Source of the DNA: a virus
Reading direction: 5' to 3' (one strand)
DNA length: 37,106 bases
Virus record (IMG/VR): IMGVR_UViG_3300034198_002086
Coordinates: 1 to 37,106 of that record
Shown here piece after piece: positions 3,054-8,119 of this stretch. Position 1 is the stretch's first letter, and each line of letters opens with the position of its first letter. A program made the position numbers and the translations under genes. Under the pieces are notes generated by a model. That model had not been told where the DNA came from. It worked only from the letters and a program-made list of their open reading frames with translations, and did not search any database.

Positions 3054-3078
3054 AAAAGGGGGGCTTGGCCCCCCTTTT
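3054..3078 (+). terminator. Intrinsic terminator
   Basis: AAAAGGGGGG, loop CTTGG, CCCCCCTTTT: a GC-rich stem flanked by an A tract and a T tract, starting right after the stop of the 76-residue gene. Because both tracts are present it could act in both directions. It separates this unit from the promoter at 3083. Confidence 0.9.
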
Positions 3079-3082
3079 GTCA

Positions 3083-3111
3083 TTGACAAATAAATCAATT
3101 GACGTTATAAT
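3083..3111 (+). promoter_or_regulatory. Consensus sigma70-type promoter P3
   Basis: TTGACA at 3083-3088 and TATAAT at 3106-3111, spacer 17 bp: a perfect consensus match. Eight bases after the -10 box the leader reads AGCAACAA, the same as in promoter P4. It drives the MoxR-like ATPase gene. Confidence 0.9.
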
Positions 3112-3145
3112 TAAGACTTAGCAACAATATTTAGGAGAGCGCAAA

Positions 3146-4249
3146 ATGGCACGTAAACAATCGGATGTAACTGACGCCCGTACAGTTAAAATTAGCGAGG
3201 CAAAGTTTATTATCCGCAAGGCACTTTCAAAAGGTCGCCCTGTGATGATCTGGGGTCCTCCCGGAATCGGCAAGTCAGATCTTATCGCTGAACTTGCACT
3301 TGAAGATAATCGTCCGGTAACAGACGTGCGTCTTAACTTGTGGGAACCTACAGACATTAAAGGTATCCCATATTACAATTCTGCTGAGAACACTATGAAG
3401 TGGGCTCCACCTGCAGAACTTCCTACTAACGAAGATGCCACTGACGTCTTATTCTTAGACGAATTGGTAAGTGCGGCGCCTGCTGTACAGGCCGCGGCAT
3501 ATCAACTTGTACTTAACCGTAAGGTTGGTACTTATAAATTGCCTAAGGGTGTTGGCATCGTTGCCGCTGGTAACCGAATGTCAGACAAGGGTGTTACATA
3601 TCGTATGCCTAGTCCGCTAGCAAATCGTTTCGTTCACTTGGAACTACGTGTGGACTTTGAAGATTGGCAAAAATGGGCTTTGAAGAATCGTATCCACAGT
3701 GACGTGGTTGGTTACTTGTCTTTTGCTAAAAATGACTTGTACAATTTTGATCCTACACAACATGACCGTTCGTTTGCTACACCTCGTTCTTGGGCGTTTG
3801 TTAGCGACTTGCTAGAAGATGGAATGAGAGAGTCTACACAGACTGATATTGTTTCCGGTTGCGTTGGCGAAGGACTTGCTATTAAGTTTATGGCACATCG
3901 TAAGATTGCTAGTAAACTGCCTAACCCTTCAGACATCCTTAAGGGCAAAGTAACTAAGTTGGACATCAAAGAAGTGTCCGCTATGTACTCTTTGACTACT
4001 TCATTGTGCTATGAGTTGAAAGACGCATACGACAATGCTAAGAAGGATGGTAAGTTGGATGTGTGGCATCCAATGTGCGAATACTTCATCCAGTATATGA
4101 TGGAGAACTTTGAACCTGAAATGGTTATTATGGGTGCCCATACAGCATTGAAGAGCTATGCACTACCGTTTGAGCACAAGAAACTTAAGAACTTCCCAGA
4201 GTTCTTTAAGAAGTATGCTCACCTTGTTATCGATATTGACAATAAGTAA
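3146..4249 (+). CDS. MoxR-type AAA+ ATPase
   Basis: 367 residues; start fixed by AGGAG 8 bases upstream. Walker A GPPGIGKS at 37-44, Walker B VLFLDE at 101-106, sensor-1 AAGN at 140-143 and an arginine-finger-like ANRF at 159-162. WEPTDIKGIP and AAAYQLVLNRKVG match the MoxR subgroup that is commonly paired with VWA-domain proteins. MoxR ATPases act as hexameric chaperones in maturation or metal-cofactor insertion of partner complexes, usually with a VWA protein encoded beside them, as here. The C-terminal half (about 190-367) is helical and specific to this subgroup. It sits alone between its own promoter and terminator. The client in the phage cycle is unknown. Confidence 0.9.
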   Translation: MARKQSDVTDARTVKISEAKFIIRKALSKGRPVMIWGPPGIGKSDLIAELALEDNRPVTDVRLNLWEPTDIKGIPYYNSAENTMKWAPPAELPTNEDATDVLFLDELVSAAPAVQAAAYQLVLNRKVGTYKLPKGVGIVAAGNRMSDKGVTYRMPSPLANRFVHLELRVDFEDWQKWALKNRIHSDVVGYLSFAKNDLYNFDPTQHDRSFATPRSWAFVSDLLEDGMRESTQTDIVSGCVGEGLAIKFMAHRKIASKLPNPSDILKGKVTKLDIKEVSAMYSLTTSLCYELKDAYDNAKKDGKLDVWHPMCEYFIQYMMENFEPEMVIMGAHTALKSYALPFEHKKLKNFPEFFKKYAHLVIDIDNK

Positions 4250-4260
4250 GATTGCGCTCC

Positions 4261-4302
4261 CCGGAGAGTGTGTGGACTTAGTTTGCTACTCTCCGGCTTT
4301 TA
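4261..4302 (+). terminator. Intrinsic terminator
   Basis: CCGGAGAGT (4261-4269) pairs perfectly with ACTCTCCGG (4288-4296) across an 18-nt loop, followed by CTTTTAT. It lies 11 bases after the AAA+ stop and ends just before promoter P4, so the ATPase and VWA genes are separate transcripts. Confidence 0.8.
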
Positions 4303-4304
4303 TA

Positions 4305-4333
4305 TTGACAAATAATAAAAAAGAACGTATAAT
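4305..4333 (+). promoter_or_regulatory. Consensus sigma70-type promoter P4
   Basis: TTGACA at 4305-4310 and TATAAT at 4328-4333, spacer 17 bp. AGCAACAA begins 8 bases after the -10 box, as in P3, and the Shine-Dalgarno stretch is also alike, so P3 and P4 look like copies of one promoter-leader cassette. Confidence 0.9.
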
Positions 4334-4367
4334 ATACATACAGCAACAAATTTTGGAGTGAGCACAA

Positions 4368-5606
4368 ATGACTACAGCAACACCTACAATAGAACGCGAA
4401 GAATACATTGCACCATTAGACAATGTAAAATTCGCAAAAGCAAAAGACCGTGTAACTAAAGTTCGAGTCCGATTGCTACTTCAACATCCTTTCTTTGGTA
4501 ACCTGGCAACTCGTCTTAAGATTGTAGATGCCACTGACAGAATCCCAACAGCCGCAGTAGATGGACGCAACATGTTCATCAATGTCAACTTCGTTGCTAA
4601 ACTTAACGATGATGAATTGATGTTCCTTATTGCTCACGAAGTGATGCATTGTGTATTTGAACACATGATTCGTCGAGGCGAGCGTCAACCGCAAGTGTGG
4701 AATATGGCAGGTGACTTTGTTATTAACTATCTGCTAGACCGAGAACGCATTGGCCAAGTTATCCGTCAAGTAGACATTTGTCTGGACTCTAAATACAAAG
4801 ACATGACTACAGAAGAAGTATACGATTCTTTAATGAAGAATGCTGTTACTATCAAAATGCCTTTGGATGTACACTTGGATATGACAGGTGATGGTGAAGA
4901 AGGCGAGGGCGAAGAAGGTCACGGTCTTGGTAAGAAACTTACTGACGAAGAACGTAAAGCCCTGCAAGACGAAATTAAAAATGCAGTATTGCAAAGTGCT
5001 CAAGCCGCAGGTGCAGGTAAAACCCCTGCCGCAGTAGCTCGTTTAATTAAACAGTTCACTCAACCAAAAATGAACTGGAAGGACCTGTTGCGTATTCAAC
5101 TTGAGAGCTTGCTTAAAAACGATTATTCTTTTACTCGTCCTTCACGCAAGGCGTGGCATACTGGTGCAGTACTTCCTGGTATGACTCCTGCGGAAGAAGT
5201 AGACTTGTGCGTAGCAATTGATACTTCAGGTAGTATTAGTGAAGATATGGTAACTGACTTCCTTACTGAAGTCAAAGGTATCATGGATAATTATGACAGC
5301 TGGAAAATCAAAATTTGGTGTTTTGATACCGAAGTGTGTGCAGTTGAAGACTTTGACAGCGATAATGGGTCATATGATATTATGGATTATGAGCCTGGTG
5401 GTGGTGGCGGAACTGACTTCGAAGCCAATTGGGAATTTATGAAACGTGAAGACATTACTCCAAAACAATTGGTAGTGTTTACTGACGGTTACCCATGTGG
5501 TAGCTGGGGTGATGAGAACTACTGTGATACCCTTTGGGTTATTAATTCTGGCAAGGACATTGAGGCACCGTTCGGAGTAACTGCCTACTATGACCACAAA
5601 CACTAA
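4368..5606 (+). CDS. Putative metallopeptidase fused to VWA-like domain (DUF2201-type)
   Basis: 412 residues. The N-terminal half carries AHEVMH (HExxH at 90-94) and a downstream Asp (MAGD, 115), a zincin-like metal site. An acidic Gly-rich linker (about 173-190) and a helical stretch follow. The C-terminal half is a von Willebrand A fold with a MIDAS site: DTSGS 285-289, GGTD 347-350 and FTDG 371-374. This architecture is the usual partner of the MoxR ATPase encoded just upstream. Together they probably form a chaperone or remodelling machine; that is family knowledge, not shown here. It has its own promoter, and its stop overlaps the next ATG as TAATG. Confidence 0.87.
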   Translation: MTTATPTIEREEYIAPLDNVKFAKAKDRVTKVRVRLLLQHPFFGNLATRLKIVDATDRIPTAAVDGRNMFINVNFVAKLNDDELMFLIAHEVMHCVFEHMIRRGERQPQVWNMAGDFVINYLLDRERIGQVIRQVDICLDSKYKDMTTEEVYDSLMKNAVTIKMPLDVHLDMTGDGEEGEGEEGHGLGKKLTDEERKALQDEIKNAVLQSAQAAGAGKTPAAVARLIKQFTQPKMNWKDLLRIQLESLLKNDYSFTRPSRKAWHTGAVLPGMTPAEEVDLCVAIDTSGSISEDMVTDFLTEVKGIMDNYDSWKIKIWCFDTEVCAVEDFDSDNGSYDIMDYEPGGGGGTDFEANWEFMKREDITPKQLVVFTDGYPCGSWGDENYCDTLWVINSGKDIEAPFGVTAYYDHKH

Positions 5607-5821
5607 TGTTTAGATATGAGATTCCCATTTCGGAATCATCAGAAGTAGACAATATAAGTTGGATAGTCAAAGACTACCTGGCCCTGAATGCCACAGGGCC
5701 ATTTCGTATTTCTGAAGGTCAATCGAGTGTGCAGATCGAACTAGAATCAGCAGAGGATTCTTTTTTGTTTGAATTGAGTGCATGGTCAGATAAGATACAG
5801 AAAATTAATGTGGCTAAATAA
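5606..5821 (+). CDS. Small hypothetical protein coupled to the VWA gene
   Basis: 71 residues, starting in a TAATG overlap with the VWA gene stop, so it is translated by re-initiation. It is acidic, with an alternating strand pattern (FRYEIPISESSEVDNISW; SVQIELESAEDSFLFEL). No family is recognised. Its coupling suggests a role with the MoxR-VWA pair, an inference from position only. Confidence 0.65.
   Translation: MFRYEIPISESSEVDNISWIVKDYLALNATGPFRISEGQSSVQIELESAEDSFLFELSAWSDKIQKINVAK
5814..5820 (+). promoter_or_regulatory. Possible late-type promoter element
   Basis: CTAAATA overlaps the stop of the preceding gene, about 39 nt upstream of the ATG at 5859. It matches the TAAATA core of T4-like late promoters and could let the following genes be expressed late. 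A 7-base AT-rich motif alone is weak evidence. Confidence 0.25.
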
Positions 5822-5858: not shown

Positions 5859-6107
5859 ATGGAACTAAATGTTCAAGACTTACAATTAGCCGCTAGCGTA
5901 ATTGATTTGGCTACACAACGTGGCGCATTCAAAGGCAGTGAAGCTAAAGCCGTTGGTACTATCTATGAAAAGATTACCACCTTTATCCAATCTGTTGCTG
6001 AAGCACAGGCTAAGCAAAAAGAAGAAGCAGATAAAGCCGCGGCTGATCAAGCTCAATCTACAGCGCCAGCTGAAGGTGAAGCACCAGCAGAGCCAACTGC
6101 CGAATAA
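5859..6107 (+). CDS. Small Ala/Glu-rich hypothetical protein
   Basis: 82 residues from ATG 5859, with AGGAG 8 bases upstream. The first half (MELNVQDLQLAASVIDLATQ and onward) is a structured helical region. The second half is a low-complexity helix and an Ala/Pro/Glu tail (EGEAPAEPTAE). Small proteins of this layout sit in the same neighbourhood in other T4-like aquatic phages, as far as I recall. Function unknown. The next gene starts 10 bases after the stop with its own AGGAG. Confidence 0.75.
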   Translation: MELNVQDLQLAASVIDLATQRGAFKGSEAKAVGTIYEKITTFIQSVAEAQAKQKEEADKAAADQAQSTAPAEGEAPAEPTAE

Positions 6108-6117
6108 GGAGATTATA

Positions 6118-6654
6118 ATGGCATTTCTCAGACACGTTGGCATCATAAAAGATGTCGGCACCAGAGTTGTAGTAGTATTCCGTCAGGTACCAAACGAACC
6201 TAATTTTTGTTTGGTAGTAGAAACTGATACATTACCAGATCGCTATCATAGTGATATTATGAATGCAGTCGAAAGCATTACAGCACAAGAAGCATTAGAC
6301 TTTTATGTGTACGCTAATCGTCAGTTCTTATCAGATGGATCAAACATGCTAACTGGTATGCACGAGAAAGGGTATATTAAAAAGATGCCTACTCGTAATA
6401 TTATTATGCGTCCGGGTCCTAATGTTGAAATCAACCTCGAAGAACTTAATAATCAATTAGCTTCTATGAATGGTGATGATCAAACTGTAGGTGAAAAAGT
6501 TTTAGATAACAAATCTATTGCTACTAACTTACGTAATCAGGCAGTCTTGTATGAAAAGCAGGCATCAGATCTACGCAAACAAGCAGAGGATCTAGATCCT
6601 CAAAAAAGACCAGTAGGACGTCCAAGAAAAGAAACTGACAATGTCTCAGCTTGA
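6118..6654 (+). CDS. Conserved T4-like phage protein with AT-hook-like tail
   Basis: 178 residues from ATG 6118, with AAGGAG upstream; an in-frame upstream extension overlaps the previous gene and reads as low-complexity Lys/Leu, so it is rejected. The N-terminal domain (MAFLRHVGIIKD, VVVVFRQVPNEPNFCLVVET, about 1-110) resembles an uncharacterised family of marine T4-like phages. A helical segment rich in Gln, Ala and Asp follows. The C-terminus KRPVGRPRKE contains the G-R-P core of an AT-hook, suggesting minor-groove DNA binding. It overlaps the next gene by 14 nt. DNA-associated function is inferred. Confidence 0.72.
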   Translation: MAFLRHVGIIKDVGTRVVVVFRQVPNEPNFCLVVETDTLPDRYHSDIMNAVESITAQEALDFYVYANRQFLSDGSNMLTGMHEKGYIKKMPTRNIIMRPGPNVEINLEELNNQLASMNGDDQTVGEKVLDNKSIATNLRNQAVLYEKQASDLRKQAEDLDPQKRPVGRPRKETDNVSA

Positions 6655-6907
6655 CAAAATCTTAGATGATGTTAAAATAGAAAGACAACGACAAGCAAAT
6701 GTAGCAGGTAGCGAGTATGATTTAATGAATACTCCAAATGATTGGGTAGCGATAGCTAGTCATTACCTGCTACAAGATGTTTATCGAAAAAAAGTTGTAC
6801 CTAATAGAGCGCAGTTTCATGATAGTCTTGTTAAGGCCGCCGCTGTAATCGTTGCCGCATTAGAGTATGAACAAAACATGACCAGCAAAGGTCACTTAAC
6901 GGACTAA
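6641..6907 (+). CDS. Small phage protein, ERQRQ/MazG-like helical family
   Basis: 88 residues. The N-terminus ILDDVKIERQRQ and the C-terminal helix DSLVKAAAVIVAALEYEQ match a widespread group of small phage proteins distantly similar to all-alpha NTP pyrophosphatases (MazG-like). The acidic metal-binding E-x-x-E motif of active MazG enzymes is not obvious, so enzymatic activity is doubtful. It overlaps the upstream gene by 14 nt and precedes the next by 2 nt. Involvement in nucleotide pools would suit the nearby thyX but is speculative. Confidence 0.6.
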   Translation: MSQLDKILDDVKIERQRQANVAGSEYDLMNTPNDWVAIASHYLLQDVYRKKVVPNRAQFHDSLVKAAAVIVAALEYEQNMTSKGHLTD

Positions 6908-6909
6908 CA

Positions 6910-7248
6910 ATGCCAATTAGAAAAAAAGATCGTAGTTTTGACGACATCCTCAATGATGTTGTGATGCACGAAGTACCAGTACAATATATTTCGGAAATTA
7001 CAGTAATACTACGTGACGGCAGAACTTTAAGTTTTGCGGCTGAAGATATCACTGACATTGATAACATTAAAAACATATTAGAACGTAAAGGTTTAGAAGA
7101 ATATTCTAAAATGATTGCAGACGTCCAAATAACAATGGACAGTCAAAAACTTAAAGAAAACGTAACCGGATTTGTTTCGGCCTTACTTGAAAAACATTTA
7201 AACGATCCAAAGAAATCTAAAGGTAAACGCAATTACAAAAAGAAGTGA
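6910..7248 (+). CDS. Hypothetical protein upstream of thyX
   Basis: 112 residues. The N-terminal part is mixed alpha/beta (FDDILNDVVMHEVPVQYISE; DGRTLSFAAEDITD). The C-terminus is strongly basic (DPKKSKGKRNYKKK). No family is recognised. Its TGA stop lies at 7246-7248, two bases before the first plausible codon of thyX. Because thyX has no canonical start for its conserved N-terminus, this gene may feed translation into thyX by coupling or frameshift. Confidence 0.7.
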   Translation: MPIRKKDRSFDDILNDVVMHEVPVQYISEITVILRDGRTLSFAAEDITDIDNIKNILERKGLEEYSKMIADVQITMDSQKLKENVTGFVSALLEKHLNDPKKSKGKRNYKKK

Positions 7249-7249
7249 G

Positions 7250-8119
7250 ATTAATTTTGATCAAGATACAAACTATGTTCCTGTATTAGATCATGGGTTT
7301 GTTGGATTAATTGATCACATGGGCGACGATGCGGCAGTAGTACAAGCCGCAAGAGTAAGCTATGGTGCAGGCACAAAACAAGTACAAGATGATCGTAATT
7401 TGATTAGATATCTTGTACGTCATGAGCATACTACTCCCATTGAAATGTGTGAGGTTAAGTTTCATTTAAAGATGCCTATCTTTGTAATGCGACAACTTGT
7501 ACGTCATCGTACTGCTAGTATCAATGAATACTCTGCTCGTTATAGCGTAATGACTGATGAGTTTTATATTCCTGAACTAGATCAAATTGCTCCACAAAGT
7601 ACATTAAACAAACAAGGGCGCGAAGAATTTGACGAGTGGGATTTTAACAAACGTCAAGACTACCAGCATGCCTTTATGCGTAGCTCACACAACAGCTATA
7701 AAGAGTACGAGTACCTATTAGGTAAAGACGGCGACGGTGTTGCCCGTGAACTAAGTCGTATGGTATTACCAGTTGGCGGATATACCGAACTGTATTGGAA
7801 AGCAAATCTAAAGAACTTTTTGCATATGGTTAGACTACGTGTTGATCCACATGCACAAAAAGAAATTCGTGACTTTGCTAATGCTATGTATCAATTGGCT
7901 AAACCATTATTTCCGGAAGTATGTCAAGCATTCGAAGACTATCAACAAAATAGTATGCGGTTAAGTATGATGGAAATTAATTTAGTAAAAAGACTAATTA
8001 GTAAACAACGTTGGATAGAACTAAACGAAGATCAACGAGGTGAAGATAATATTGCTAAGGCATATGGTCTAAGCAAACGAGAATTAACTGAATTTAAAGG
8101 TAAACTTGACCTCCAATGA
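7250..8119 (+). CDS. thyX: Flavin-dependent thymidylate synthase ThyX
   Basis: About 289 residues. ThyX methylates dUMP to dTMP using methylene-tetrahydrofolate, FAD and NADPH. The signature RHRTASINEYSARY (RHR-x7-S) is intact, and RHEHTTPIE and RELSRMVLPVGGYTE are also typical. The first ATG in frame is 7319 (MGDDAAVVQ), but the 23 codons before it encode VPVLDHGFVGLIDH, a block that ThyX proteins conserve. The frame is open back to a stop at 7199 with no ATG, GTG or TTG. An AUU at 7250 (ATT AAT TTT), with AGAAG 4 bases upstream, is the best candidate start; a frameshift or assembly error is possible. It overlaps the next gene as ATGA. With the deaminase it forms a dCMP to dUMP to dTMP route. 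Confidence 0.93.
   Translation: MNFDQDTNYVPVLDHGFVGLIDHMGDDAAVVQAARVSYGAGTKQVQDDRNLIRYLVRHEHTTPIEMCEVKFHLKMPIFVMRQLVRHRTASINEYSARYSVMTDEFYIPELDQIAPQSTLNKQGREEFDEWDFNKRQDYQHAFMRSSHNSYKEYEYLLGKDGDGVARELSRMVLPVGGYTELYWKANLKNFLHMVRLRVDPHAQKEIRDFANAMYQLAKPLFPEVCQAFEDYQQNSMRLSMMEINLVKRLISKQRWIELNEDQRGEDNIAKAYGLSKRELTEFKGKLDLQ

Follow-up and report, generated by a model that had tools for sequence, protein, structure and literature searches.

Machines in which an AAA+ ring of the MoxR type acts with a VWA-domain partner are known from bacterial enzyme activation, where the NorQ-NorD and CbbQ-CbbO systems employ VWA partners without a fused peptidase. In NorQ-NorD the hexameric ring binds one VWA adaptor (a 6:1 arrangement), whose metal ion-dependent adhesion site (MIDAS) is needed for maturation of the client (PMC9976466), and a twisting action is exerted on the linker of the adaptor (PMC13036017). 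Viral pairs have been described as well. The earliest report of linked MoxR subunits that we found in a phage dates from 2007 and concerns a two-subunit MoxR chaperonin of Bacillus phage 0305phi8-36 (PMC2147016). The p618/p892 proteins of the archaeal Acidianus two-tailed virus form a MoxR-VWA pair that acts as a chaperone when the tails develop (cited in PMC7824862 and PMC9964418). In 2014 gp24 and gp25, middle transcripts in phage N4, were listed among the core genes of N4-like phages with no function (PMC4193335). Iyer et al. (2021) reported a metallopeptidase-VWA/MoxR pair in the group 2.2 jumbo phages, with Atu_ph07 (ASV44729.1/ASV44728.2) as exemplar, and proposed for it a role in virion assembly, likening it to the tail chaperones of the Acidianus virus (PMC7824862). 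Here we consider a homologous pair of genes in positions 1 to 37,106 of the IMG/VR virus record IMGVR_UViG_3300034198_002086. This whole stretch, hereafter the window, is a 37-kb fragment of a large virus of bacteria, whose relative L003 sits on a contig of 231 kb.

The occurrence of the pair in phages is thus already known; the layout of its transcription, the conservation of its active sites, its co-inheritance and its gene context are added here. A preliminary description of the locus, drawn from the sequence alone, had presented the pair as unusual for a phage, but each gene is matched by more than 750 phage records and the pair is already in print. Relative to the known systems, the pair of Atu_ph07 is homologous to that of the window over most of both proteins and has the same domain order. 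N4 gp24/gp25 is likewise a homologous pair with the same domains. The likeness to p618/p892, which lacks a peptidase domain, and to the 0305phi8-36 pair is one of description. NorQ-NorD and CbbQ-CbbO share the MoxR ring and the VWA partner, whereas the partner in the window carries a peptidase domain. Bacterial MoxR-DUF2201 operons (e.g. L072, L134 and L137) consist of the same two families in adjacent genes.

Both genes are intact in the window, and their identification in the preliminary description as a MoxR ATPase and a metallopeptidase-VWA protein agrees with the Pfam and PHROGs matches (PF07728 and phrog_1297; PF13203, PF09967 and phrog_1314). The Walker motifs and sensor residues expected of a MoxR-like AAA+ module are present: across 129 phage MoxR proteins K43 and S44 (Walker A), D105 and E106 (Walker B), N143 and R161 are invariant, while R214 is kept in 128. 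The AlphaFold2 model of the MoxR protein has a mean predicted local distance difference test score (pLDDT) of 88 and a predicted template modelling score (pTM) of 0.80, and the top Foldseek rows, its closest solved structures, are NorQ, NorQD and CbbQ; by analogy with these, the protein would form a hexameric, ATP-driven AAA+ ring. The partner combines an N-terminal, zincin-like DUF2201_N metallopeptidase domain (PF13203, E=5.8e-39) with a C-terminal VWA domain (PF09967). Its model (pLDDT 81) has a pTM of 0.56, so that the relative placement of the domains is uncertain. Residues 274-412 match VWA domains of known structure (Z up to 12.7), and the structural matches listed for this protein, which include the VWA domains of MDN1 and NorD, all fell on its VWA domain. 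A sequence profile gave a weak match to MJ1213 (4qhf, E 0.0015).

The preliminary description had noted that the HExxH and MIDAS residues are retained in the window, and this proves to be a general property of the phage homologues. Of 120 distinct phage VWA proteins, all have H90 and H94, and 119 have E91. D116, in the helix that follows HExxH, is likewise invariant and is a candidate third zinc ligand. The MIDAS residues D285, S287 and S289 occur in all 120, and T349 and D373 in 117. Loss of the active sites is rejected by these counts, and the strict conservation of HExxH suggests catalysis, the N-terminal domain being probably a zinc protease. Among the nearest bacterial VWA proteins, drawn from a biased set (the 80 best matches found with the MoxR query), those of the Campylobacterota have lost the HE (e.g. 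NGAMH); it is kept in most proteins of the Pseudomonadota, Bacillota and Thermodesulfobacteriota. The family phrog_1314, which includes N4 gp25 (L062:6923-8065), the PA5oct protein (L055:9983-11167) and relatives, is labelled 'HNH endonuclease' in PHROGs and in several RefSeq records. For both the window protein and N4 gp25, Pfam recognises no domains other than metallopeptidase and VWA, and by this measure the label is unfit for them. Two loci carry tandem VWA genes (L022:4379-5614 and 5953-7266; L008:1696-2934 and 3566-4864), and in each the upstream copy has Asn in place of the MIDAS Thr, with HExxH intact.

The two genes are organised as separate transcription units, each behind its own 12/12 sigma70 promoter and with a terminator (hairpin 4261-4296) between them (Table 1), as had been described. 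The tail directly after this hairpin reads CTTTTATA, and the stretch 4250-4300 has a folding energy of -21 kcal/mol (z -3.94). The terminator has a long loop and was detected by a wider hairpin search rather than by the standard scan. Only three perfect sigma70 sites exist in the whole window, at 3083, 4305 and 35404. The T4-type late promoter TATAAATA occurs on neither strand of the window, a result that is uninformative.

This organisation recurs well beyond the window. When the stretch between MoxR and the VWA gene was compared with dinucleotide shuffles in 74 distinct phage cases with a gap of 30-400 nt, a promoter of at least 10/12 was present in 48 (1.95 in shuffles), a perfect promoter in 24 (0 in shuffles) and a hairpin with a T-run in 48 (1.0 in shuffles). 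Upstream of MoxR, 77 of 105 distinct phage loci have a promoter of at least 11/12 (0.35 in shuffles). Over 122 phage loci, the density of perfect promoters is 1.80 per kb within 200 nt upstream of either gene and 0.054 per kb elsewhere; no perfect promoter was found at the corresponding places, before either gene, in 60 bacterial loci. The shuffles and the local density rule out chance matches, and the original observation is thereby confirmed as more than chance. The MoxR-VWA spacer has a median of 85 nt in 117 phage pairs and 0 nt in 59 bacterial pairs (Mann-Whitney P ~5e-13, with related loci non-independent), in keeping with the contrast to bacterial single operons that had been drawn earlier. 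Exceptions exist: of the 117 phage pairs, 18 have a spacer of at most 20 nt, and in several N4-like pairs the genes stand close together. No sigma70 promoter of at least 8/12 was found in the gp24-gp25 gap of N4, and the 0305phi8-36 pair, unlike that of the window, is described as sharing one transcript (PMC2147016). From the contrasts in gaps, promoter density and spacers we conclude that separate transcription is a conserved trait of the phage clade to which the window belongs. The separate units of the preliminary description are therefore real, but are the norm of this clade and no peculiarity of one genome. That the terminator-promoter arrangement is conserved across the large-phage clade, while the nearest bacterial pairs are tight operons, is new information.

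Quick trees of 82 MoxR and 84 VWA proteins, made without bootstrap and uncertain for long branches such as rV5, are concordant. In both, a phage-only clade of 43 rows (support of 100 and 99 in the Shimodaira-Hasegawa-like approximate likelihood ratio test) unites the window with PA5oct, Atu_ph07, Phosso, SCTP-2, 121Q, RaK2, XaC1 and metagenomic relatives, and the N4-like phages form a second lineage. The S-TIM5 pair groups with one from a Synechocystis plasmid, and that of phage G with a Bacillales contig. Ratios of nonsynonymous to synonymous substitution rates (dN/dS) among close relatives are 0.07-0.10 for MoxR and 0.08-0.13 for the VWA gene, with synonymous sites near saturation in some pairs. 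Scans for conserved stretches in the very diverse alignments A1 and A2 gave none. The pair is, on these phylogenies, an old possession of phages whose two genes travel together; linkage and co-inheritance of a MoxR gene and a VWA-partner gene are likewise the mark of the NorQD/CbbQO type. Recent, non-maintained acquisition of a bacterial operon from a host, suggested by the existence of similar bacterial pairs and by the S-TIM5 and phage G groupings, is rejected as very improbable, because both trees place the window far within a clade made up of phages only, dN/dS is about 0.1, indicating strong purifying selection, and the motifs are invariant. Neither of the two conditions that the preliminary description had named as refuting it, motifs not conserved in phage homologues and recent acquisition, holds. 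The label 'T4-like' given earlier to the phage is a loose one, because its baseplate wedge is closest to those of jumbo phages such as Atu_ph07, SCTP-2 and GAP32.

Three bacterial entries deserve comment in this context. L067, filed as the Acinetobacter baumannii plasmid pRBH2-3 (NZ_CP110465.1, 75 kb), encodes a single-subunit RNA polymerase as well as a gp24/gp25 pair whose place in the trees is with the N4-like phages, and is probably a misfiled N4-like phage genome. L068 (NZHE01000019.1) and L069 (NYSS01000147.1), filed as contigs of Rickettsiales and Planctomycetota metagenome-assembled genomes, have pairs that fall inside the phage clade and are probably phage contigs binned with bacteria.

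The pair lies in a replication and nucleotide-metabolism neighbourhood in many of these phages, which is also new information. A 5'-3' exonuclease gene (PF02739) is found on the same strand 2.2-4.9 kb upstream of MoxR in 71 of the 108 phage loci whose flank is long enough; in the sub-clade of the window it is missing from that place. Downstream, 42 of 79 loci have a thymidylate synthase, mostly ThyA, with ThyX in others including the window. Of the large or named genomes, 17 have such a gene, and in 11 of these it lies within 10 kb downstream of the pair (1.15 expected at random places), in a test that covers three lineages of the pair, treats non-independent genomes and ignores the clustering of nucleotide genes. 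A ThyX-like gene lies 1.6 kb downstream in N4, and a dCTP deaminase gene directly follows the pair in N4, Piffle and RHph_X3_15. The phrog_13789 and phrog_15894 genes come after the VWA gene in about 75 loci, including 121Q.

Table 1. Features of the MoxR/metallopeptidase-VWA locus, in window positions
Feature	Position	Strand	Evidence
Terminator-like hairpin (3058-3073) and T-rich tail before the MoxR unit	3058..3079	+	5 G-C pairs, CTTTTG tail
MoxR promoter, TTGACA-17-TATAAT	3083..3111	+	12/12 sigma70 match
MoxR-type AAA+ ATPase, 367 aa	3146..4249	+	PF07728; phrog_1297 E=6e-98
Intrinsic terminator between the two genes	4261..4304	+	hairpin 4261-4296, T-rich tail 4297-4304
VWA gene promoter, TTGACA-17-TATAAT	4305..4333	+	12/12 sigma70 match
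Metallopeptidase-VWA protein (putative adaptor), 412 aa	4368..5606	+	PF13203 and PF09967; phrog_1314 E=7e-111
HExxH, residues 90-94 of VWA protein	4635-4649	+	conserved motif
MIDAS DxSxS, residues 285-289 of VWA protein	5220-5234	+	conserved motif
Small gene, 71 aa, TAATG overlap with VWA stop	5606..5821	+	only in the window's close relatives
phrog_13789 neighbour	5859..6107	+	PHROGs match; conserved
phrog_15894 neighbour	6118..6654	+	PHROGs match; conserved
ThyX thymidylate synthase, downstream of pair	7319..8119	+	PF02511 E=4.5e-53

The TAATG coupling of a small gene to the VWA gene, noted earlier, stands, and both the overlap and the 71-aa open reading frame are kept in the close relatives L002-L005. 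The product had no family match in Pfam or PHROGs searches. A terminator-like hairpin of 8 pairs lies inside its coding sequence (window 5679-5701). In the segment 35404-36704 the third perfect promoter precedes a gene for a 376-aa product with no match in PHROGs or in the NCBIfam search, which gave none. In an rV5-type phage, the gene before the VWA gene (L063:4690-5667) is annotated as an anti-sigma factor; its best match is phrog_3118 (HNH endonuclease), with weak matches to sigma70-decoy and Srd families.

With somewhat less than even confidence, we propose that the pair encodes a remodelling machine of the NorQD/CbbQO kind equipped with a protease, made by the host RNA polymerase and acting in the replication and nucleotide phase of infection. 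The type of machine is well supported and its phase of action moderately so. The proposed mechanism would run as follows: 1) The two genes would furnish a single ATP-driven machine, with MoxR as the AAA+ motor ring and the VWA protein as an adaptor docking on it. 2) The MIDAS metal site of the adaptor would grip an acidic site on the client and, from the analogy with NorQ-NorD, the ring is expected to drive conformational work through the VWA protein. 3) The client would be handed to the adaptor's own N-terminal zinc protease, coupling remodelling to limited proteolysis. 4) Host RNA polymerase would transcribe each subunit from its own strong promoter, and the intervening terminator would allow independent subunit levels, e.g. 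an excess of ring subunits over adaptor like the 6:1 ratio of NorQ:NorD. 5) Action would be early to middle, the target being a complex engaged in DNA replication or nucleotide metabolism, or else one of the host that limits these processes. The kind of promoter, the gene neighbourhood and the timing of N4 gp24/gp25 as middle transcripts favour the replication phase. Of the roles floated in the preliminary description, remodelling of a complex is plausible, an assembly chaperone is a hypothesis already published, and no finding of this analysis points to counter-defence. Its interpretation as a whole is partly supported.

Several points weigh against this proposal. The single exception at E91 is Atu_ph07, the very exemplar of the group 2.2 pair, which reads HQILH and so has HQ in place of HE. 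The pore 'finger' of NorD was not recognised in the phage VWA domain, and nearly all of the stretch 274-412 in the model aligns to VWA domains of proteins without AAA+ ring partners. Thymidylate synthase lies elsewhere in PA5oct, Phosso, SCTP-2, phage G and rV5, and the neighbourhood may be passive, nucleotide genes being plentiful in early-middle regions in any case. A literature search for expression studies that name the pair found none. A consensus sigma70 promoter is compatible with late activity as well, virion genes lie just upstream of the pair in 121Q, the PA5oct ATPase carries an electrospray tandem mass spectrometry (ESI-MS/MS) note, and one AAA ATPase peptide was found in DC4 virions (PMC10638138).

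The last three of these points speak for the main rival, a serious one that we nevertheless regard as rather unlikely, in which the ring and adaptor serve the construction of the head or tail and the zincin processes structural precursors by cleavage. Beyond the proposal published for group 2.2, it draws on a second, non-late set of structural genes near the gp24/25 homologues of RPP1 (PMC4193335). The middle timing in N4, the host-type promoters and the replication and nucleotide neighbours speak against assembly. The presence of the pair in both contractile-tailed giants and N4-like podoviruses indicates that it is not tied to one tail type, and the DC4 authors themselves call for confirmation of co-packaging.

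In a reading of host takeover or counter-defence, the complex that the machine takes apart or cuts would belong to the host, e.g. to its defence or transcription. Such a role would accord with host-type and probably early promoters, with a protease that looks active by its motifs and with the remodelling of host complexes by bacterial AAA+ plus VWA machines. We consider it improbable, for anti-defence genes are expected to be patchy and fast-changing, whereas this pair belongs to the core set of N4-like phages and has near-invariant motifs. PADLOC gave only weak partial AAA matches for the ATPase (best E 3.6e-4, 34 residues) and none for the VWA protein, and no defence or anti-defence gene was recognised adjoining the pair.

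Distinctly improbable, in our estimate, is a chaperone that inserts a metal cofactor into, or activates, a phage nucleotide-synthesis enzyme, as NorQD does for nitric oxide reductase, with the zincin fold binding rather than cleaving. The closest solved structures, NorQ and CbbQ, do have metal insertion or activation as their job (PMC13036017), and thymidylate synthase and other nucleotide genes lie nearby. The small subunit of the diiron ribonucleotide reductase is present in 12 of 18 pair-bearing genomes and absent from 6, which weakens this enzyme as a universal client. The adjacent synthase also varies, ThyA in some phages and ThyX in others, and neither is known to need an inserted metal. 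The strict conservation of HExxH again suggests catalysis rather than mere binding.

Returning to the remodelling machine with a protease, its fullest form is a possibility that we hold with considerable doubt: an ancient core machine of phages in which, while the genome is replicated, AAA+ remodelling is tied to zinc-dependent proteolysis, so that a complex of replication or nucleotide synthesis is both remodelled and trimmed, with the ring:adaptor ratio tuned by two independently terminated units under host-type promoters. Such a MoxR system, if real, would act through proteolysis instead of cofactor insertion and would be common to giant contractile-tailed and N4-like phages. The pair of the group 2.2 jumbo phages has only a proposed assembly role, and N4 gp24/gp25 have been listed with no function; linking the two gives a concrete and testable alternative to assembly, founded on a putative protease motif kept in essentially all phage members, on replication and nucleotide neighbours, and on host-type promoters.

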